This document shows positions 1-14,699 of a stretch of DNA of 40,179 bases, one piece after another. The translations under genes were made by a program, and so were the position numbers. The DNA comes from Caulobacteraceae bacterium (GTDB taxonomy: Bacteria > Pseudomonadota > Alphaproteobacteria > Caulobacterales > Aquidulcibacteraceae): NCBI GenBank assembly GCA_009773335.1, contig WRPF01000034.1, forward strand, positions 1-40,179, written 5' to 3'. The notes beneath the pieces are model-generated. The model saw only the letters and a list, made by a program, of their open reading frames with translations, was not told where the DNA came from and did no database searches. Every line of letters starts with the position of its first letter. The first letter of the stretch is position 1.

Positions 1-288
1 GCGCTGCTGCGCGCGGATGCGGTGGCGATCACGGACGGCGGCGGCGTCAAGCGGGCCGCGCTCAACCCGATCCGCGGCGCCGACAGGGTGGCGCGCTTCT
101 TCATCGGCCTGATGCGCAAGTTCGGCGGCGGCTTCCGTGTCGAGCCGCGCACCATCAACGGCGCGCTCGGGCTGGTGCTGTTCCTGGATGATATGATCGA
201 CCAGACGCTGTCGATTGAATCCGACGGCGAGCGGATCATCGCGATCTACGCCGTGCGCAACCCGGAGAAGCTGGCGCGATTGAGCTAG
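1..288 (+). CDS. ECF41-type RNA polymerase sigma factor, C-terminal part (5' end outside window)
   Basis: Only the last 95 residues are present; the frame is open from base 1. They match the SnoaL-like C-terminal extension that ECF41/SigJ-type sigma factors carry after the sigma-2 and sigma-4 regions. The visible signature is AITDGGGVKRAALNPI followed by GADRVARFFIGL, which corresponds to the conserved DGGG...NPI...G..RVARFL pattern of that domain. In the family this extension contacts the sigma core and modulates promoter opening, replacing a separate anti-sigma factor. The stop codon overlaps the stop end of the convergent minus-strand gene by 4 bases. The DNA-binding regions are not in the window, so the family call rests on the tail alone. 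Confidence 0.75.
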   Translation, partial: ALLRADAVAITDGGGVKRAALNPIRGADRVARFFIGLMRKFGGGFRVEPRTINGALGLVLFLDDMIDQTLSIESDGERIIAIYAVRNPEKLARLS

Positions 289-680
289 GTCACGCGCTCG
301 CGCATGGAGCCCGAAGCTTCCAGGCGCGCGAGGAGGTCGTCCGTCGCGGCCGCAACGGCCTTTTCCCCGAAACGGCGCGCAAGCCTGCGGATCACGGGAA
401 CGAGGCCGGCGGCCGCGATGTCGATGGCGCCGTGGGTTTCCTCGATCACGCCGATAAGCGCGTCGGCCTTGTCGGACGCGGGCCCCTGGATGACCGCGAG
501 GCGTGCGGCGAGTTTCGTCGCGAAATCGGCTTTCGGCACCGGGCGTTTTTTCGGCGGCGCGATTTCCGCCAGCAGCACGGCGTCGCTCTGCGCGCGCACC
601 GCCTTGAACAGGGACTTCATCTCGGCGGGCGTTCGCGTCCGGCGCAGGCTTTTCAGCGTCTTGCGGGTCGCCTCGTCCAT
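285..680 (-). CDS. Small basic hypothetical protein, partner of the TIR-ParA gene
   Basis: A 131-residue protein that I do not recognise. It is mostly predicted helical, with a lysine/arginine-rich N-terminus (MDEATRKTLKSLRRTRTP), a proline-lysine linker near residues 42-50 (PPKKRPVPK), and an alanine-rich helical second half with repeated arginines. No signal peptide or membrane segment is visible. Its ATG lies 4 bases after the stop of the upstream TIR-ParA gene, and the GTGAGG that precedes it contains that stop codon, so the two are probably translationally coupled. The basic character would suit nucleic acid or ParA-partner binding, but that is inference. Its end overlaps the convergent sigma factor gene by 4 bases. 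Confidence 0.65.
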   Translation of the reverse strand: MDEATRKTLKSLRRTRTPAEMKSLFKAVRAQSDAVLLAEIAPPKKRPVPKADFATKLAARLAVIQGPASDKADALIGVIEETHGAIDIAAAGLVPVIRRLARRFGEKAVAAATDDLLARLEASGSMRERVT

Positions 681-684
681 GGCC

Positions 685-1926
685 TCACGCGCCCGCGCGC
701 TTGATGATGTCGATGGCGGCGGACGCGAGGCTTTCCTTCAACATGCGCTGGGCGAACTGCTTCATCGCGGTCAGCGAGATCGGATTGACCACGTAGCGGT
801 CGATCGGCGTCGTGCGCAGGTGCGTGGTGTAAGGGATCGCGGGGCCGAGCAGCGCGGAGCCGAAGAAGGGCGCGGCGGCGATTTCCTCGCGCGTGGCCTG
901 GTCCACATCGTAGCCGCCGCGCGTGCGTGGGCGATCGGCGACGCCATTGAGGAGCACGGAAAATTCGCTCGATTTCAGCGGCCGCCCGCGGATCTGGCGC
1001 GTCACCTGCTCCAGCATGTTGAGGCCGGTGAGCGAGTATTTCTCGGGCCGTACAGGCGCCACGATGTGATCGGACGCGGTGACCGCGCAGCGCGTCAGGA
1101 ACGTCGCGCAGGGGTTCACATCGATGACCACGAGATCGTATTTGGCGCGCAGCTGCGCGACGAGGTCATGGAAGCGCGACAGCGCGTCGGCGCGCTCGCG
1201 CTCCGTGCGGCCGTCCAGCGTGAACTCGAACAGGCGCTCGTCGCCGACCACCAGATCGAAGCGCTGCTTGCCCATGCCGCGGGCGCGGTTGAGCTGCACG
1301 GGCATGCGCGCGAAGTTCTCGCGCGGCGTCGACAGCGGGCCCTTGGCGATGAACACCGAATAGATCGTCATCGCGTCCGCGCGCACGCGGTTGCGCTCCT
1401 CCGGCGGCAGGAAGAACTGCGAGAGATTGTGCTGGGGGTCGAGGTCGATGAAGCACACCGACTTGCCGAGCTCGAGGTGCGCGGCCGCGAACACGTTCGC
1501 CGCAAGCACCGTCTTGCCGACGCCGCCCTTGATGTTGAGCATGGCGATGGTGCGTCCGGCCTCCGCGAAGGCGCGCACGCGGGCGACAATGGCCGAGAGC
1601 ACGGGGTTCGAGAGCCCTTCGCGCGCGTCCAAGCGGTTCTGCAGGTCGAGGACCGGGCGCACGCCCTCCGCGGACACGTCCTTCAGCAGGACCGGCACGA
1701 TGGGTTTGCCGTTGGCGATCGCGAAGGCGAGGTCGCGGGCGGCGGCTTCGTCGGCCTCGGCGCCGGGCGAGATCAGCGCCACGAGGCAGCGGGCGTCGAG
1801 GATGGCCTGCGCGCGATCCACGGCGGTCAGCGTCGCCGGCAGGCCATGCGCCTCCAGCTCGCGGGCGATGTCGCGCGCGGCCGCGGAATCCTCCGCGCCG
1901 TAGGAGAGATATGCGGCGATCGCCAT
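685..1926 (-). CDS. TIR-like domain fused to ParA/MinD-type ATPase
   Basis: A 413-residue fusion. Residues 1-~90 have the TIR/flavodoxin-like layout: a first strand IAAYLSYG followed by an acidic turn, an alpha helix, then CLVALISPGA and PIVPVLL strands. The position expected to hold the catalytic glutamate reads ARDLAFA, so the acid is Asp, and the loop that usually carries WWD is shortened; NADase activity is therefore doubtful. Residues ~125-413 are a ParA-family ATPase with the deviant Walker A KGGVGKT (about 133-139), the FIDLDPQHNLSQFF segment, and a Walker B-like DLVVIDVNP. I chose the ATG at 1924-1926 because it directly precedes the first strand; an upstream TTG would add 7 residues. 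It is the first gene of a two-gene unit. No parB or centromere-like repeats are seen nearby, so plasmid or chromosome partition is not indicated. Confidence 0.75.
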   Translation of the reverse strand: MAIAAYLSYGAEDSAAARDIARELEAHGLPATLTAVDRAQAILDARCLVALISPGAEADEAAARDLAFAIANGKPIVPVLLKDVSAEGVRPVLDLQNRLDAREGLSNPVLSAIVARVRAFAEAGRTIAMLNIKGGVGKTVLAANVFAAAHLELGKSVCFIDLDPQHNLSQFFLPPEERNRVRADAMTIYSVFIAKGPLSTPRENFARMPVQLNRARGMGKQRFDLVVGDERLFEFTLDGRTERERADALSRFHDLVAQLRAKYDLVVIDVNPCATFLTRCAVTASDHIVAPVRPEKYSLTGLNMLEQVTRQIRGRPLKSSEFSVLLNGVADRPRTRGGYDVDQATREEIAAAPFFGSALLGPAIPYTTHLRTTPIDRYVVNPISLTAMKQFAQRMLKESLASAAIDIIKRAGA

Positions 1927-2097: not shown

Positions 2098-3477
2098 ATG
2101 CGTGAAAAATGGTCCCCGAACTCCTGGCGCGCAGCGCCGGCCAAGCACATCCCGAACGACTACCCGGACGCGAGCGCCGTGGCGCGGGTGGAGGCGACGC
2201 TGCGCAACTACCCGCCGCTCGTCTTTGCGGGCGAGGCGCGCAACCTGAAGGCCTCGCTGGGCCGGGTCTCGGCGGGCGAGGCGTTCCTGCTGCAGGGCGG
2301 GGACTGCGCCGAGAGCTTCAAGGAATTCCACCCCGACAACATCCGCGACACCTTCCGCGCCCTCATGCAGATGGCGGTGGTGCTGACGTTCGCGGGCGGC
2401 AAGCCGGTGGTGAAGGTCGGGCGCATCGCCGGCCAGTTCGCCAAGCCGCGCTCCGAGCCGACCGAGACGCAGGACGGCGTGACCCTGCCATCCTACCGCG
2501 GCGACAACATCAACGGCATGGACTTCACGCCGGAAGAACGCATCCCCGATCCAGAACGGCTCATCCGCGCCTACTCGCAGTCCGCCGCCACGCTCAATCT
2601 CATCCGCGCCTTCGCGCAGGGCGGCTACGCGGACCTGCGCAGCGTGCATCGCTGGACGCTGGGCTTCGTCGCCGACAGCCCGGCGGGCGAACGCTACAAG
2701 AAGATCGCCGACAAGATCTCCGAAGCGCTCGAGTTCATGGCCGCGTGCGGCGTGACCCCCGAGACCACGCCGCAGATGAAGCAGGTTGATTTCTATACGT
2801 CCCACGAGGCTTTGCTGCTCGGCTACGAGGAGGCCATGACCCGCGTCGATTCCACGACCGGCGACTGGTACGACACGAGCGCGCACTTCCTCTGGATCGG
2901 CGACCGCACGCGCCAGCTCGACGGCGCGCACGTGGAATTCATGCGCGGCGTGAAGAACCCCATCGGCATGAAGTGCGGGCCCAGCCTCGAGCCGGATGAT
3001 CTCCTGCGCCTCATCGATGCCCTCAATCCCGACAACGAGCCGGGCCGTCTGACGCTCATCGCGCGCTTCGGCGCGGAGAAGGCGGCCGCCGGCCTGCCGC
3101 GCCTCGTGCGCGCGGTGCAGAAGGAAGGCCGCAACGTGGTGTGGTCGTGCGATCCCATGCACGGCAACACGCTGAAGACGCAGTCCGGCTACAAGACGCG
3201 GCCGTTCGACCGCATCCTCGCGGAAGTGCGGACCTTCATGGAAGTGCTGCCTGCCGAAGGCGCCTATCCCGGCGGCGTGCACGTGGAGATGACGGGCGCA
3301 CAGGTGACCGAGTGCCTCGGCGGCGCGTCGGCGGTGACGGAAGAGGATCTCTTCGACCGCTACCACACGCACTGCGATCCGCGCCTCAACGGCGCGCAGG
3401 CGCTGGATCTGGCGTTCCTCGTGGCCGAGGGCCTGCGCAACACGCGCATCGAGGCGCGACGCGCCGCGAACGGGTAG
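2098..3477 (+). CDS. 3-deoxy-7-phosphoheptulonate synthase, class II
   Basis: A class II (plant/mycobacterial-type) DAHP synthase of 459 residues, the usual length. It condenses phosphoenolpyruvate and erythrose 4-phosphate, the first step of the shikimate pathway to aromatic amino acids. Visible family signatures include [11 protein letters not shown] at about 64-74, whose cysteine is a metal ligand in this family, then [14 protein letters not shown], the loop [11 protein letters not shown], and [11 protein letters not shown] in the C-terminal half. The ATG is preceded by a strong AAGGAGG (2087-2093) with 4 bases between. The gene stands alone: the upstream neighbour is divergent, and the convergent lipoprotein gene ends 3 bases after its stop. 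No leader peptide or attenuator was recognised upstream. Confidence 0.95.
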
Positions 3478-4902: not shown

Positions 4903-5592
4903 CTATTTCAGCCTTGCGATGGCCTCCGCGCGCGAGCGCACGCCCAGCGTCCGGTAGATCGCCGCGAGGTGGATCTTCACCGTGCCCTCGGCGAGTTCGA
5001 GCCCGGCCGCGATCTTTCGCGTCGAGGCGCCGGTGAGCAGCAGGTCCACGACCGCCTTCTGGCGCGGCGTGAAGATGTAGTCTTTCCGCACCTCGCTCCC
5101 GGTCGGGTCGACGCGCGCATGCGCGACCCGGCGGTCCGCGATGCGCGGGGTTGCAGCAGGCTGCTGCCGGCCGTCCCGCAAGGCGTGCAGTTCGTTGATC
5201 ATGCCAAGATAGCAATGGATAAGCTCGGGCCTGAGCCCCGCGAGCGAGATTTCGATCAGCGCAGATTCGGTCAGATGGATTGCGTGCGCCACGCGTGTGC
5301 GCGCGATATCGTGCTGCAGGGCGCTTCCCCCGCGTGCGCCGCCGTTGCGGCGCGCGAACCAGTCCGCGCGCAGGCGGTCCATGGGGTCCTCAAGATACAG
5401 GACGCCGTCCTCGTGTGCATGCGCGGCCTCGTACGCATCACGGACGATCGTTGCTTCAGCGTCGAGAATGCCCTCGCCCGATTCATGCAGGGCGGCGGCG
5501 TTCGTCGACCGCACTACAGGGCGGTCAAGCGGCGGCCCGTCTTTGGCGTCTATGTCTGAGGTCTGCAAACTATGTTGCTTGGAGTAGGGCAT
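4903..5592 (-). CDS. LuxR-type HTH transcriptional regulator
   Basis: A 229-residue regulator. The C-terminal ~65 residues are a LuxR/GerE helix-turn-helix: FTPRQKAVVDLLLTGAS, then the recognition region with AEGTVKIHLAAIYRTLGV. The first ~150 residues match no sensor domain that I recognise; they are helical with a charged stretch DPMDRLRADWFARRNGG. There is no receiver domain, so it is not a classical response regulator. I chose the ATG at 5590-5592 because AGGAG sits 6 bases upstream; a start at 5649 is possible but lacks such a site. It lies downstream of, and in the same direction as, the second LuxR-type gene, with a palindrome between them, so the two may form a regulatory relay. Confidence 0.75.
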   Translation of the reverse strand: MPYSKQHSLQTSDIDAKDGPPLDRPVVRSTNAAALHESGEGILDAEATIVRDAYEAAHAHEDGVLYLEDPMDRLRADWFARRNGGARGGSALQHDIARTRVAHAIHLTESALIEISLAGLRPELIHCYLGMINELHALRDGRQQPAATPRIADRRVAHARVDPTGSEVRKDYIFTPRQKAVVDLLLTGASTRKIAAGLELAEGTVKIHLAAIYRTLGVRSRAEAIARLK

Positions 5593-5684
5593 ACATGGCT
5601 CCTGTCCATTGCGTGCTCCAGCGGTTGAGTGATTGGCCGCATTCGCCAACGGCCTGAAGAGGGTACGGCCATATGGGGTGTAGA

Positions 5685-5728: not shown

Positions 5729-6469
5729 TCAGCGCAGCACGTCGTCGAACGAGATCTGCGAACGATAGAGGGCGCGCACGACAAGTTGCGTTCGCGTCGT
5801 CACTTCATAGCGCTTCATCGCGGCCTGGATGTGCTTGTGCACGGTCTCCTTGCTGATCTCAAGGAGCCGGCCGATTTCCCAGTCGCCCTTGCCGCGCGCC
5901 ACAAGCGTGATGCAATCGAGTTGTCGGGACGTGAGGCCCGGCGGCGCATCTGACGGAAATACATTGGCTTTCGCGATCCTGCGCGTGGCGTCGTAGGCGA
6001 GGGCGCCGAGATATTGCGCGTAGGGAAACATGTGCGTGGGCAGGTCCTCGCCGACACGTACGCCGAACTGGACCGACCCGCAGATATCGTCGACGAGGTT
6101 GGCGGGGACGATGAAGCCTTCGCCGACGCCAAATGCCCGGTAGTCCCATTCGATCTCGCGCTGCTCAGCGGTCGGGTGCGTCATGGCGAGCGCCTGCGAC
6201 CATGAAAATCCTGCAACCCGGCTCCTGCACAACGCCGGCAACGGACTGATCTTCACATACCGTTTTGCAATGGAGAGTTGCTTCAGGCCTTCGGGAATGT
6301 TCGTGATGTTTGCGACATTCGCGGCGAGCGGGTCGCTCACATAGTGCGTCAATGCAAAATAGGTGAAGCCGAGCCGGCTCGTGACCTCGTTCAGGTAAGC
6401 CTCAAGGTCGGTGTAGGAAATTATCGAATTTGAAAGCGCCGCGAAGCGCTCGACTTCTTCCGTTCGCAC
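5729..6469 (-). CDS. LuxR-family regulator with divergent autoinducer-binding domain (LuxR solo)
   Basis: A regulator of about 246 residues with the two-domain LuxR layout: an N-terminal autoinducer-binding domain (LGFTYFALTHYV, RAFGVGEGFIVPAN) and a C-terminal GerE helix-turn-helix (LTSRQLDCITLVARGKG, EISKETVHKHI). Aligned by eye with TraR/LuxR, the residues that contact acyl-homoserine lactone are altered: the segment that normally reads YP..W...Y......DP is here IPEGLKQLSIAKRYVKISP, so the Trp and the Asp are replaced. The later P..W position reads FSW. No luxI homologue lies in the window. The start is uncertain: I chose GTG at 6467-6469 from the domain boundary, with a weak GGATGG upstream; a TTG at 6515-6517 would add 16 residues. 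Confidence 0.75.
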   Translation of the reverse strand: MRTEEVERFAALSNSIISYTDLEAYLNEVTSRLGFTYFALTHYVSDPLAANVANITNIPEGLKQLSIAKRYVKISPLPALCRSRVAGFSWSQALAMTHPTAEQREIEWDYRAFGVGEGFIVPANLVDDICGSVQFGVRVGEDLPTHMFPYAQYLGALAYDATRRIAKANVFPSDAPPGLTSRQLDCITLVARGKGDWEIGRLLEISKETVHKHIQAAMKRYEVTTRTQLVVRALYRSQISFDDVLR

Positions 6470-6546
6470 TTGCAGCCATCCACAAGCAACATTGCGCCGG
6501 GGCCGCCGGCATTCCAAGTAAAAAGCGCGTCAACGCGTCGTGCGCA

Positions 6547-11271: not shown

Positions 11272-12609
11272 ATGACTCCCAAATTGCGTTTCGCGCCGAG
11301 CCCCACGGGCCGGCTCCATGTCGGCAATATCCGCACCGCTCTCCTGAACTGGCTGTTCGCACGCCAGCAGGGCGGCCAGATGCTCCTGCGCATCGACGAC
11401 ACCGATCTCGAGCGGTCCACGAAGGCCTTCGAGGAAGGCATCGAGACCGATCTCAGATGGCTTGGCCTCGACTGGGACGAGCGCGCGCAGCAGTCGACGC
11501 GGTTTGCGTCCTATGACGCGGCGGCGGAAAAGCTGAAGGCTGCGGGCCTGCTGTATCCCTGCTACGAGACCGAGGAAGATCTCGAACGCAAACGCCGCAT
11601 CGCGCAGTCGCGCAACAAGCCGCCGGTGTACGATCGCGCGGCGCTGTCGCTGACGGACGCCGACCGCGCGGCGCTCGAAGCGGAAGGGCGCAAGGCGCAC
11701 TGGCGCTACAAGCTTTCGGGCAAGCGCGTGGAATGGACCGACCTCGTGCGCGGGCCGCAGTCGATCGACACGACCTCGCTCTCCGATCCCGTTCTCATCC
11801 GCGCCGACGGCGCCTATCTCTACACGCTGCCGTCGGTCGTCGACGACATCGAGTACAAGATCACCCACATCGTGCGCGGCGAGGATCACGTCACCAACAC
11901 CGGCGTGCAGGCGGAAATCTTCGAAGCGCTCGGCGCAAAGCTGCCGATATTCGGGCACTTTCCGTTGCTCGTCGGCGCAGATGGAGAGGCGCTGTCGAAG
12001 CGGCTCGGTTCGCTGTCCGCGCAGATGCTGCGCGACGACGGCTTCGAGACGGTCGCCATTCTCAGCCACCTCGCGAAACTCGGCACGTCCGATCCCGTGG
12101 AGGCGCGATCCGATTTCGCGACGCTCGCGGCGGAATTTTCCTACGGCAAGATCGGCCGCGCGCCCGCGCGGTTCGATCCCGAAGAGCTGAAGCGCGTCAA
12201 CGCTGCGGTGCTGCACGCCATGCCCTACGACGCCGTGAAGGATCGCCTCGCGGCGTTTGGCGCGGATCTCGGCGAGACGTTCTGGAACACGGTGCGCGCC
12301 AATCTCGTGCTGCTGCCGGACGTCGCGGCGTGGGTGAAGGTGATCGCCGGACCGATCACGCCGGTCATTGCGGATGCAGGGTTTGCGGAAGCCGCGCTGA
12401 GCGTGCTGCCGAAGGGCCCGTACGATGCGACGTCGTGGGGCGCGTTCGTCGACGCGGTGAAGGGCAAGACCGGCGCGAAGGGCAAGGGCCTGTTCATGCC
12501 GCTGCGCCAGGCGCTGACGGCGATGGATCACGGGCCGGAGATGGCGCCGCTGTTTGCGCTCATCGGCGAAGAGAAGGCGCGCGCGCGCCTGAGCGGGCAA
12601 GCGGCGTAA
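11272..12609 (+). CDS. gltX: Glutamyl-tRNA synthetase
   Basis: A 445-residue class I aminoacyl-tRNA synthetase that charges tRNA with glutamate. FAPSPTGRLHVGNIRTA at 7-23 contains the HIGH-type motif as HVGN (16-19), and LLRIDDTDLERS follows. The KMSKS-type loop is GEALSKRLGS near residue 240. The zinc-binding region of some GluRS is replaced by YPCYETEEDLERKR, where only one cysteine remains. At 445 residues it is slightly shorter than many GluRS. Alphaproteobacteria often carry two gltX copies, and one may be non-discriminating and charge tRNA-Gln as well; which one this is cannot be decided here. A TIR-domain gene follows after 5 bases. Confidence 0.93.
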   Translation: MTPKLRFAPSPTGRLHVGNIRTALLNWLFARQQGGQMLLRIDDTDLERSTKAFEEGIETDLRWLGLDWDERAQQSTRFASYDAAAEKLKAAGLLYPCYETEEDLERKRRIAQSRNKPPVYDRAALSLTDADRAALEAEGRKAHWRYKLSGKRVEWTDLVRGPQSIDTTSLSDPVLIRADGAYLYTLPSVVDDIEYKITHIVRGEDHVTNTGVQAEIFEALGAKLPIFGHFPLLVGADGEALSKRLGSLSAQMLRDDGFETVAILSHLAKLGTSDPVEARSDFATLAAEFSYGKIGRAPARFDPEELKRVNAAVLHAMPYDAVKDRLAAFGADLGETFWNTVRANLVLLPDVAAWVKVIAGPITPVIADAGFAEAALSVLPKGPYDATSWGAFVDAVKGKTGAKGKGLFMPLRQALTAMDHGPEMAPLFALIGEEKARARLSGQAA

Positions 12610-12614
12610 GCGCC

Positions 12615-13400
12615 GTGGCCGACGTCTTCATCAGCTACAAGCGCGAGGATCGCGCGTGGGCGGAAGCGGCGTCGGCGAAACTCGTCGAGGCCGGCTGGTC
12701 CACGTGGTGGGACACCTCGCTCGTGGCCGGCGAACGCTTCTCCGATGTGATCGGACGCGAACTCACCGGCGCAAAAGTCGTGGTCGTTCTCTGGTCGAAC
12801 GCGTCGCTCACGTCGAACTGGGTGAAGGCGGAGGCGCAGTACGCGTTCGACGCCGACAAGATCGTCGCCGCGCGCATCGAGGACGTGACGCCGGGCTTTC
12901 CGTTCCAGTCGATCCAGACCTGCGATCTCATCGCCACGCAGCCGCGCTTCGCCGCGCCCGCGCAATGGGCGGCGTTGCTGGAGGGCGTGCGGCGCAAGAC
13001 AGGCGTTTCGGCGAAGCCGGCGATCTCGGTCGCCGATGCGCTCGCGGTCACGCGCGCTGCAAAGGCCGCGATGCGGACGCGCCTCATCGATGTCGCGCGC
13101 GCACGCGATCTCGTCACCTATCAGGAGCTCGCGGCCGAGACGGGCGTGCCCATCGGCGAGGCGCTGTTCGATGCGCTGAATGCGGTGGCCATCGACAACA
13201 GGAAACGCGGCGAGCCGGTGCTGAGCGCACTCGTCGTCGGCAAGGACGGCGCGCCCGGCGACGGCTTCTTCACGCGCCGCTGGATCGAGGTGTCGCCGGA
13301 GGCGCCACACCTCGAGAAGCTCGCGGCGTGGCGCGTGGAATGCGAGCGCGTGTGGGCGCACTGGGAAGAGTGGTCGCTGGACGCGGATATGGCGGGGTAG
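12615..13400 (+). CDS. TIR-domain protein with intact catalytic glutamate and a C-terminal LSALVV/GFF module
   Basis: A 261-residue protein starting at GTG 12615, 5 bases after the gltX stop. Residues 1-~125 are a canonical bacterial TIR domain: VADVFISYKREDRAWAE, then GWSTWWDTSLVAGERF, VVVVLWSNASLTSNWV and KAEAQYAF. The glutamate at 73, three residues after SNWV, matches the NADase catalytic position, so the protein could cleave NAD+ or make signalling nucleotides. Residues ~160-250 hold a second module with VTYQELAAETG, LSALVVGKDG and GDGFFTRRW, a pattern I have seen attached to restriction-like or defence-like proteins of unknown role. The GC content resembles the host, unlike the adjacent reverse transcriptase operon. 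The position after gltX suggests cotranscription with a housekeeping gene. A defence role is inference. Confidence 0.85.
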   Translation: MADVFISYKREDRAWAEAASAKLVEAGWSTWWDTSLVAGERFSDVIGRELTGAKVVVVLWSNASLTSNWVKAEAQYAFDADKIVAARIEDVTPGFPFQSIQTCDLIATQPRFAAPAQWAALLEGVRRKTGVSAKPAISVADALAVTRAAKAAMRTRLIDVARARDLVTYQELAAETGVPIGEALFDALNAVAIDNRKRGEPVLSALVVGKDGAPGDGFFTRRWIEVSPEAPHLEKLAAWRVECERVWAHWEEWSLDADMAG

Positions 13401-13435: not shown

Positions 13436-14395
13436 TTACTTCGAGTTAGAGCGGACACGTTTGTCCCGTTTTTGTCGAATTACATTCATCCTCCTAGCGA
13501 TTTTTTGTCCCCACTCGCGCTGCGTACCCAGAATGTGAAGCTGTCCGCCAAGGCGGCTCAATAGGCGATTTGCTTTTGCCTCATACTCGCTCGGATCAAC
13601 GCTGTTTCTCAATGCGGCTTCAAGATCGCGGATTGCTAGGTTCGAGGAATTGGCCGGATGGAGTTCACCGCATCTCACCACGACGCCGGTGACTGTGGAG
13701 TCACGGTTAGTCGTCACGAACGCGATATCGTGGGTCTTGTATCCGTGTGAGGCGATTATCTCGCGAACTTGCACGAGCAGTGCGCCAGGCACCTCGGCGC
13801 CCGAAATTGTCAGGTTGTCGACCCACAAGGACATTTTCGTGCCGAACGCTAGGCACGCGTTGTCGATTTGATCGAACATTTTTCGATGCGCCAGCATCAC
13901 CAAAACCGGTGTTGCTGGAGCGCCATACAAAACTCGTCCTTCAAAAGTGAGCAGTTCGGTGATGAGGCCGGCAACATCTGGATGCATCGAAAACTCTTCG
14001 CGGAAGAACCGCGCGATGTATCGTCTCGAAACCGACGGATAAAATTTTCGCAGATCCAGCGTTAGGATTTGTTTGGCGTCAACGTGGACCGCCGCATTCT
14101 CGCGTTGCCCGCGACCACGTCTGGGGCTTGCGACATAATCTGGGAGCCGAATCTTGCTTAGCTGATACTTTAGCGCTTCATTCACCGAGCGCAGTGGGCC
14201 GCGCGGATAGCATAGTGGACGGGCCTTTCCGTCTATCTCGCGAACCTCTGCCACCACGAATGACTTCTTGTATTTTATGAGCCCCTTTAGCTGGGGAAGT
14301 GGCCTTCGCAGGAGATTGGCCAGCTTTTTTTGAGTTAGGCGCTGCGCCAAAGGCGATCGCGTCAACGCATATCGCTCATGCGTCCGCTTTGTCAT
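13436..14395 (-). CDS. Retron-type reverse transcriptase with WVDN active-site variant
   Basis: A 319-residue reverse transcriptase. The retron-specific motif NAxxH is present as NAAVH (100-104), just before the first catalytic aspartate in LTLDLRKFYPSVS (D114). The motif before the active site, GAPTSP in typical retrons, is YGAPATPVLVMLAH (157-170). The YxDD box reads WVDN (191-194), so the first aspartate is kept and the second is Asn. The second retron hallmark VTG is at 235-237 (TVTGVVV). These features place it among retron reverse transcriptases, but in a divergent branch. The C-terminal ~80 residues are basic and likely bind the template RNA. I chose the ATG at 14393-14395, with AGGA 9 bases upstream; a TTG would add 3 residues. 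It overlaps the upstream HTH gene by 20 bases. GC is clearly lower than in flanking genes. Confidence 0.88.
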   Translation of the reverse strand: MTKRTHERYALTRSPLAQRLTQKKLANLLRRPLPQLKGLIKYKKSFVVAEVREIDGKARPLCYPRGPLRSVNEALKYQLSKIRLPDYVASPRRGRGQRENAAVHVDAKQILTLDLRKFYPSVSRRYIARFFREEFSMHPDVAGLITELLTFEGRVLYGAPATPVLVMLAHRKMFDQIDNACLAFGTKMSLWVDNLTISGAEVPGALLVQVREIIASHGYKTHDIAFVTTNRDSTVTGVVVRCGELHPANSSNLAIRDLEAALRNSVDPSEYEAKANRLLSRLGGQLHILGTQREWGQKIARRMNVIRQKRDKRVRSNSK

Positions 14396-14699
14396 TCGGC
14401 GCAATCCTGTCGAGAAATTCCAATACTCTCTTCGCGACTATCGTCTTGCCGCGAGACGGATTCGGAATGCTCTCAAGCTCTTCGGCGAAAAAAACGAGAT
14501 TCGACATCTTCACTTTCAACGCATCCGAATAGCGTTCAAGCAAATCCATCGATACCGACTTAGATGCGCTCTCAACTTCTGACACTACCGATTGCGAAAC
14601 ACCCAAGCGCTCAGCCATTTCTGCTTGGTTAAATCCCCAATATAGTCGTGCCAGTCGCAATGCCTCATTTATCAATGGGCGCTTTGCTGCCTTAGTCAT
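14376..14699 (-). CDS. Cro/cI (XRE)-type HTH protein of the retron operon
   Basis: A 107-residue protein. Residues ~14-68 form a lambda-repressor-like helix-turn-helix: LARLYWGFNQAEMAERLGV, then SQSVVSEVESASKSVSMD as the recognition part, then LERYSDALKV. The C-terminal ~35 residues are a short tail without a recognised domain. It overlaps the reverse transcriptase start by 20 bases, so the two are very probably cotranslated. HTH proteins accompany some retron types and may act as effector, regulator or antitoxin-like partner; the order small ORF, HTH, reverse transcriptase suggests it also controls the operon. The 31-base AT-rich palindrome upstream (15112-15142) is a candidate binding site. 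Confidence 0.85.
   Translation of the reverse strand: MTKAAKRPLINEALRLARLYWGFNQAEMAERLGVSQSVVSEVESASKSVSMDLLERYSDALKVKMSNLVFFAEELESIPNPSRGKTIVAKRVLEFLDRIAPNDKADA

Follow-up and report, generated by a model that had tools for sequence, protein, structure and literature searches.

What does a TIR-like domain do at the head of a ParA-type ATPase, in a protein whose gene is followed by that of a small basic protein? Bacterial TIR domains have been studied mostly as NAD+-consuming immune or toxic enzymes, and a conserved chromosomal family that retains the TIR domain, with a drifting catalytic residue, is a natural setting in which to test whether this domain can have a role that is structural only. 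The window, by which we mean the whole stretch of DNA analysed, takes up bases 1 to 40,179 of a contig of 43,265 bases in a 4.0 Mb genome. The TIR-ParA fusion is called P1 and the 131-aa small basic protein P2; f1 stands for the family of the window, f2 for a sister family of the same order and g14 for one f1 genus. Genomes are given G numbers, loci or stretches read L numbers, and contigs C numbers.

A TIR-ParA fusion and its small basic neighbour

The first-pass annotation had described a fusion followed, 4 bases later, by a basic protein of 131 residues, and both open reading frames were located as described (Table 1), with the 4-base gap lying between the P1 stop codon (685-687) and the P2 ATG (from 680). 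P1 starts with the ATG at 1926; an alternative start at an upstream in-frame TTG (1947) is possible but unlikely. The existence of full-length orthologues at 50-87% identity excludes a chance origin of the P1 ORF. At gathering scores, Rfam identified two tRNAs only in the window, and the repeats found around the P1 and P2 genes look like GC-rich coding noise.

Table 1. Position of the gene pair, its domains and key residues, and its divergent neighbour in the window.
Feature	Coordinates	Strand	Basis or remark
TIR-ParA fusion P1, 413 aa	685..1926	-	Pfam TIR_2 + AAA_31; full-length orthologues 50-87% identical
TIR domain, residues 5-121	1564..1914	-	Pfam TIR_2; profile match to canonical TIRs; model element order; alignment columns
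ParA-type ATPase domain, residues 123-413	688..1560	-	Pfam; Soj/ParA superposition; invariant motifs
Walker A KGGVGKT, residues 133-139	1510-1530	-	Within ParA domain
Asp65 at catalytic Glu column	1732-1734	-	Alignment columns
P2, 131-aa basic helical protein, proposed ATPase partner	285..680	-	Directly downstream of fusion in 29/30 f1 genomes
Class-II DAHP synthase, divergent neighbour	2098..3477	+	Pfam DAHP_synth_2 1.4e-213; marker of the ancestral site, no claimed part of the system

The C-terminal part of P1 matched Pfam AAA_31 (residues 125-314; 7.3e-25), and the deviant Walker A motif with its signature lysine and the Walker A' and Walker B aspartates are all present. Residues K133, G134, G135, G137, K138, T139, D161, D163 and D269 were invariant in 14 diverged sequences. 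This part of the model superposed on Soj/ParA structures with Z values of 25-26 and an rmsd of 2.5-2.7 over 234-250 aligned residues, the best Soj match being 9a6n_A (Z 26.3, rmsd 2.6, 249 residues aligned). The ParA domain noted at first sight, with its KGGVGKT motif (residues 133-139), is indeed there, and it is complete.

Residues 6-96 of P1 matched Pfam TIR_2 (E 7.8e-8; 33.3 bits, the cut-off being 28). In an AlphaFold model of P1 built on a 27-row alignment (mean pLDDT 83.7, pTM 0.85), DSSP placed alternating strands and helices along residues 5-121 in the order of a TIR fold, followed by the ParA fold, a comparison of element order only. Compared with six TIR domains of a more canonical kind, one stand-alone and five taken from paralogous or relocated copies, a profile of 12 orthologue TIR parts (out of 27) gave a probability of 99.3 and an E value of 6e-21. 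The assignment of the N-terminus to the TIR domains rests on Pfam, on the predicted order of elements and on this profile comparison; searches with the whole model neither support nor exclude a TIR fold, because the matches listed were ParA/MinD-type chains. The TIR-like N-terminus originally claimed is thus sustained, and the structure prediction by which it was to be checked, obtained here within the model of the whole P1, gave a strand-helix order that fits a TIR fold. TIR_2 scored above its cut-off in two of the three f2 proteins scanned (the one from L044 remained below it, at 22.1 bits), and reached 52-73 bits in the five paralogous or relocated copies.

P2 of the window has a pI of 10.3 and produced no match in Pfam, NCBIfam, PADLOC or PHROGs; no ParB or HTH domain was matched in the domain searches. 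Its model is all-helical, with a pLDDT of 80 but a pTM of 0.49, and the N-terminus is predicted to be helical, not disordered. The first 30 residues carry a net charge of +6 in the window, and of +3 to +8 in all the 26 sequences compared, against a background of 281 ORFs with a mean of +0.84 (sd 3.16), 12% of which reach +5 or more. This N-terminal charge is weak evidence, given that many P2 members are basic along most of their length, that the 26 sequences are relatives of one another and that +5 or more is attained by 12% of the background. A fold search with the P2 model against the PDB returned 0 matches at E <= 0.001, and in a second fold comparison Z was at most 5.0, below the chance level for helical models. 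Death-fold chains (pyrin, DED, CARD and a bacterial death-like domain) recurred in 12 of the first 14 rows of the latter, with Z values of 3.2-4.9 that are below noise and among chains that Foldseek itself had picked; a death-fold-like C-terminal helical half of the modelled P2 is a lead only.

Several other genes of the window deserve mention. A reverse transcriptase is encoded at 13436-14699 on the minus strand (PADLOC RT_VI 1.8e-58, PHROG polymerase 3e-45, Pfam RVT_1 6.6e-7), overlapped upstream by the gene of a 107-aa HTH protein (HTH_3 2.2e-9), and the two together look like a type VI retron by their domain matches; no Rfam RNA was found at gathering score at the reverse transcriptase. 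Right after the glutamyl-tRNA synthetase gene, a stand-alone TIR protein (TIR_2 9.4e-22, WxxxE intact by eye) is encoded at 12612-13400 on the plus strand, hidden inside a longer ORF (11733-13400), and a similar protein is encoded at L006 (3-776, minus strand). Two LuxR-type regulators lie in a row on the minus strand, at 4903-5649 and 5729-6517, the second one with an autoinducer-binding domain.

A TIR domain kept while its catalytic residue drifts

According to PMC11374754, the glutamate of the WxxxE motif in the C-helix is important for an active TIR NADase. Judged by this residue, P1 of the window does not qualify as such an enzyme, since Ala61 stands for the tryptophan and Asp65 for the glutamate. 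Both sequence anomalies noticed in the first-pass annotation are real: the alignment columns confirm an aspartate at the position of the catalytic glutamate, which is lost in the genus of the window, and the WWD loop is shortened by a deletion of 9 residues after residue 38 with respect to most relatives. The closest relative has the same deletion, and the next-closest one lacks 7 residues.

The catalytic column of the 27 f1 sequences contains 22 Glu, 3 Asp, 1 His and 1 Ala. The glutamate is kept in all 21 g14 orthologues, 19 of which have both the Trp and the Glu of WxxxE; outside g14, Glu is found in 1 of 6 f1 sequences and Trp in none of the 6. The f2 sequences have 8 Asp and 4 Gln at this column (Glu in 0/12), and the residue is Glu in 5/5 aligned paralogous or relocated TIR-ParA copies. 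The suggestion that no signal is made agrees with the loss of the catalytic glutamate in the window's genus, but may not extend to g14 (21/21) or to the five aligned copies, which retain it.

The two halves of the fusion also differ in constraint, with a mean pairwise identity within f1 of 76% for the ParA half and 50% for the TIR half. For the comparison of the window with its nearest relative, dN/dS was 0.31 for the TIR domain, 0.08 for ParA, 0.25 for P2 and 0.10 for the DAHP synthase; with the next relative, the values were 0.49 (TIR), 0.23 (ParA) and 0.41 (P2). The dN/dS values of 0.31 and 0.49 indicate a loose but persisting constraint on the TIR domain in the window's genus. On sequence grounds, the simplest reading is that catalysis would have been lost repeatedly while the TIR domain was retained, and it is possible that the g14 TIR domain is still catalytic, as its motif would suggest.

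Distribution, chromosomal site and inheritance

The fusion was found in 30 of the 60 f1 genomes, a count that includes G044 (at a contig end), G053 (with an internal stop) and G013 (a 32%-identical copy at another site), and excludes G047, where a paralogue alone is present. A P2 profile had matches in 29 of 298 genomes of the order, all 29 within the 30 f1 genomes with a fusion; coordinate comparison located P2 directly beside the fusion in 29/29 and, among the 298 genomes, never without it. The sole f1 fusion genome without P2 is G044, in which the fusion is cut off by the end of the contig. The two genes overlap by 4 bases at 24 of the 26 loci read. Of the other two loci, one shows a 4-base gap like that of the window; at the second (L013), a diverged P2 was missed by the ORF rule and found by the profile. 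The coupling of the small protein suspected from the window alone thus extends to f1, where P2 is the constant companion of the fusion (29/30). At G053:C8:228702-229793 the fusion is broken by an internal TGA and was matched in three pieces, with a full-length small protein downstream; this interruption may be either decay or a sequencing error.

Searching the order at 1e-25 yielded a relative of the fusion in 72 of 299 genomes (31 from f1 and 41 from f2) and none in the other families drawn. At 1e-60, the fusion was detected in 65 of 105 f2 genomes, and it is ~30% identical to that of the window. No P2 match was obtained outside f1 among the 298 genomes of the order, so P2 is not needed everywhere, as f2 keeps the fusion without it; in the f2 stretches L040-L051 the fusion is retained and the small protein absent. 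Draws from the class and the phylum (385 and 398 genomes) contained no TIR-ParA outside the order at strict thresholds, one other hit (G711) involving the ParA part only; these wide searches used thresholds of 1e-25 and 1e-45 and covered only the window's phylum, so TIR-ParA fusions may exist elsewhere. A pattern-based search for relatives recovered only 4 close ones. No description of a TIR-ParA fusion was found in the literature searched, which takes in few subscription papers; the 'para' passages found in PMC2292703 concern paraMORC and not ParA.

In all 8 f1 stretches with long flanks, the fusion lies beside a class-II DAHP synthase gene on the opposite strand, separated from it by nothing (4/8), by doubtful short ORFs (2/8) or by one gene of ~440 aa (2/8). 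The ~440-aa genes, at L008 6586-7917 and L057 8182-9501, belong to one cluster. The f2 fusion directly adjoins the DAHP synthase gene in 11 of 12 stretches; in the twelfth, the automated ORF call placed a spurious long frame over the synthase site. In the f2 stretch L044, a glutathione-reductase-like gene converges on the fusion from the other side and is followed by rpiA and a GlmU-like gene; the same gene clusters are met again in 11 of the 12 f2 stretches, and P2 has no space there. A MATE gene is found near the fusion in 10/12 f2 stretches and in the window. The distances of the fusion and of the DAHP synthase agree across 19 loci (r 0.938, a value attained by 0 of 2000 permutations; some automated frames over-long), as they do within f1 (0.81, 8 loci) and f2 (0.91, 11 loci), an agreement which points to a chromosomal gene passed on vertically. 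The unit has long been fixed in the chromosome, at a site shared by two families.

Mobile elements told the same story for each type of record. None of 72,556 plasmid records covers 80% of the window's fusion, and with a paralogue as query a single plasmid record reached 81%, from residue 81 on, which is ParA only. Among phages, 14 records matched, none of them over 80% and one through the TIR part only. In the best 80 of 246 viral-contig relatives, the match never begins before residue 106 and so takes in ParA only; a phage or viral origin of the fusion was rejected, as these best 80 relatives are without the TIR part.

A second or sole, more canonical TIR-ParA is encoded elsewhere in 5 of the 60 f1 genomes (G033, G047, G048, G050 and G058), in 5/5 cases with a small ORF of its own that overlaps its end or lies just downstream. 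Four of these small proteins (L052-L055) gave a profile that aligned with that of P2 (hhalign probability 96, E 3.8e-9, 14% identity), and by this weak link of four sequences a module made of a TIR-ParA plus a small helical protein seems to recur. The paralogues of G047 and G058 (L053 and L054) are near a 1-deoxyxylulose-5-phosphate synthase gene, identified by Pfam for the L054 copy and by clustering for the L053 copy, and near three genes that resemble flgB, flgC and fliE by the look of their sequences.

Possible functions and known relatives

The reading that we favour, with middling confidence, is that P1 and P2 form a chromosomal, vertically inherited switch of the ParA/MinD type for positioning or assembly, with P2 as dedicated partner and the TIR domain as interaction domain; the pair would probably be a housekeeping device and not an antiviral weapon. 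The ATPase would dimerise on ATP and bind a matrix, most likely the nucleoid. P2 would be its cognate partner, the basic N-terminus touching the ATP dimer and stimulating its release as McdB, ParB and MinE do. In the window's genus, where NAD+ cleavage would no longer be its task, the TIR-like domain would mediate contacts between proteins, by self-assembly or by binding a cargo, and the outcome would be the placement or the timed assembly of a cell component. According to PMC10241942 and PMC12204374, partners of ParA/MinD ATPases bind the ATP dimer via a positively charged N-terminus and link it to a cargo. P2 fits such a role because it lies beside the ATPase in all f1 fusion genomes in which this stretch is assembled, is basic over its first 30 residues and is predicted to be helical. 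The annotated neighbours at the fusion's site are ordinary genes and suggest no cargo. We infer, in line with the first-pass annotation, that the TIR part serves assembly or sensing and the ATPase acts as the switch.

The main rivals of a positioning or assembly switch are a structural use of the ATPase and a defence effector. In the former case, rather unlikely in our opinion, P1 would be, like BcsQ or FleN, a subunit with a structural or regulatory task in a complex for secretion, the envelope or transcription, with P2 as a fixed subunit (as BcsR is the small partner of BcsQ) and no gradient or transport. BcsQ, FleN and FlhG were indeed among the structural matches (Z 19-21, rmsd 2.9-3.4) and share the ATPase fold common to all of these proteins, but Soj/ParA matched better (Z 25-26), and no secretion, cellulose or flagellar gene is found among the annotated neighbours of the copies at the DAHP synthase site. 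A defence role of P1/P2 is unlikely too. It would imply that the ParA part senses infection, that the TIR domain then cleaves NAD+ or makes a signal, and that P2 is an adaptor or antidote. The TIR fold itself, the intact WxxxE of 19/21 g14 sequences, the glutamate of the five aligned paralogous or relocated copies, the patchy occurrence of paralogues (5/60 genomes), which resembles that of accessory genes, the weak PADLOC TIR-domain similarity of the three paralogues scanned, and the retron-like reverse transcriptase and stand-alone TIR gene at 11-13 kb in the window all speak in its favour. Yet the catalytic glutamate is absent in the window's genus and in 12/12 f2 sequences, the locus is a fixed housekeeping one where the fusion distances track those of the DAHP synthase, and no full-length copy was seen on phages, plasmids or the best 80 of the 246 viral-contig relatives. 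PADLOC gave no match of weight for the pair, P1 hitting only non-TIR models (E 0.0064 and 0.016) and P2 none, and the stand-alone TIR gene was seen in only 1 of the 24 other stretches read, that of the close relative L006.

The association with the divergent DAHP synthase, kept in f1 and f2, could also mean that the pair regulates aromatic amino-acid synthesis, which we deem very improbable: other neighbours are kept as well (MATE; in f2, the glutathione-reductase-like gene, rpiA and the GlmU-like gene), as fits general synteny, the ~440-aa gene separates the fusion from the synthase in 2 of 8 f1 stretches, no promoter-like site was seen between the genes (a weak test for this clade), and five relocated or paralogous stretches are without the synthase. 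A system for plasmid or chromosome partition, to which the ParA homology and the basic partner might point, is more improbable still. With up to 3 mismatches allowed, the window has no 16-mer resembling what we take to be the parS consensus, the strongest ParB match of the genome is found elsewhere, on contig C10, with a further ParA-like match close by, P2 matches neither a ParB nor an HTH domain, and coverage of the fusion stays below 80% in every plasmid record. The lack of a partition site and of ParB noted in the first-pass annotation is accordingly confirmed, a tie to plasmid partition finds no backing in the 72,556 plasmid records, and plasmid partition was rejected for want of an adjacent ParB or parS and of any plasmid-borne fusion. 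A bolder version of the positioning or assembly switch is quite unlikely: the TIR domain would have been fused to ParA in the common ancestor of the two families and lost its enzymatic residues several times, to become an assembly-only module with a death-fold-like half in its partner. If true, it would represent a prokaryotic module of a TIR and a death-like adaptor devoted to spatial organisation, not immunity.

As to known systems, the TIR sequence of one paralogue matches the chains Tir and AbTIR of bacterial TIR NADases (8e-5 and 1.5e-4), and a g14 TIR weakly matches that of SARM1 (0.08), but P1 differs from the AbTir and SARM1 NADases by the replacement of the catalytic Glu by Asp in the window's genus and by its absence from the 12 f2 sequences. 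With ThsB of Thoeris it shares the TIR fold, and relatives gave weak ThsB_TIR hits, below or just above the cut-off; the window protein has no PADLOC ThsB match, and the window pair did not match the known defence TIR models (Thoeris/CBASS). TadZ/CpaE proteins likewise have their ParA/MinD domain preceded by an N-terminal alpha/beta domain, but that of P1 is a TIR domain by Pfam, and 3fkq, which we take to be TadZ, ranked 31 in the Foldseek search with the P1 model and superposed poorly (rmsd 12.4, TMq 0.35). Soj/ParA of ParABS systems has the same ATPase fold and motifs, the differences being the extra TIR domain, the lack of ParB and parS in the window and a two-gene unit away from the ParB contig.

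The McdA/McdB system resembles P1/P2 in that a ParA-type ATPase has a dedicated small partner, with an N-terminus that is basic and helical like that of McdB (PMC12204374), and differs in that the ATPase has here a TIR domain at its N-terminus and no carboxysome gene is among the genes annotated. A dedicated adjacent candidate partner with a basic N-terminus, the charge being weak evidence, was found in f1 and not in f2, and only by analogy might P1/P2 work like McdAB. Many ParA/MinD ATPases are described as 'orphans' without an identified partner (PMC10241942), and P1/P2 is a further ParA-type system, one for which a candidate partner is identified.
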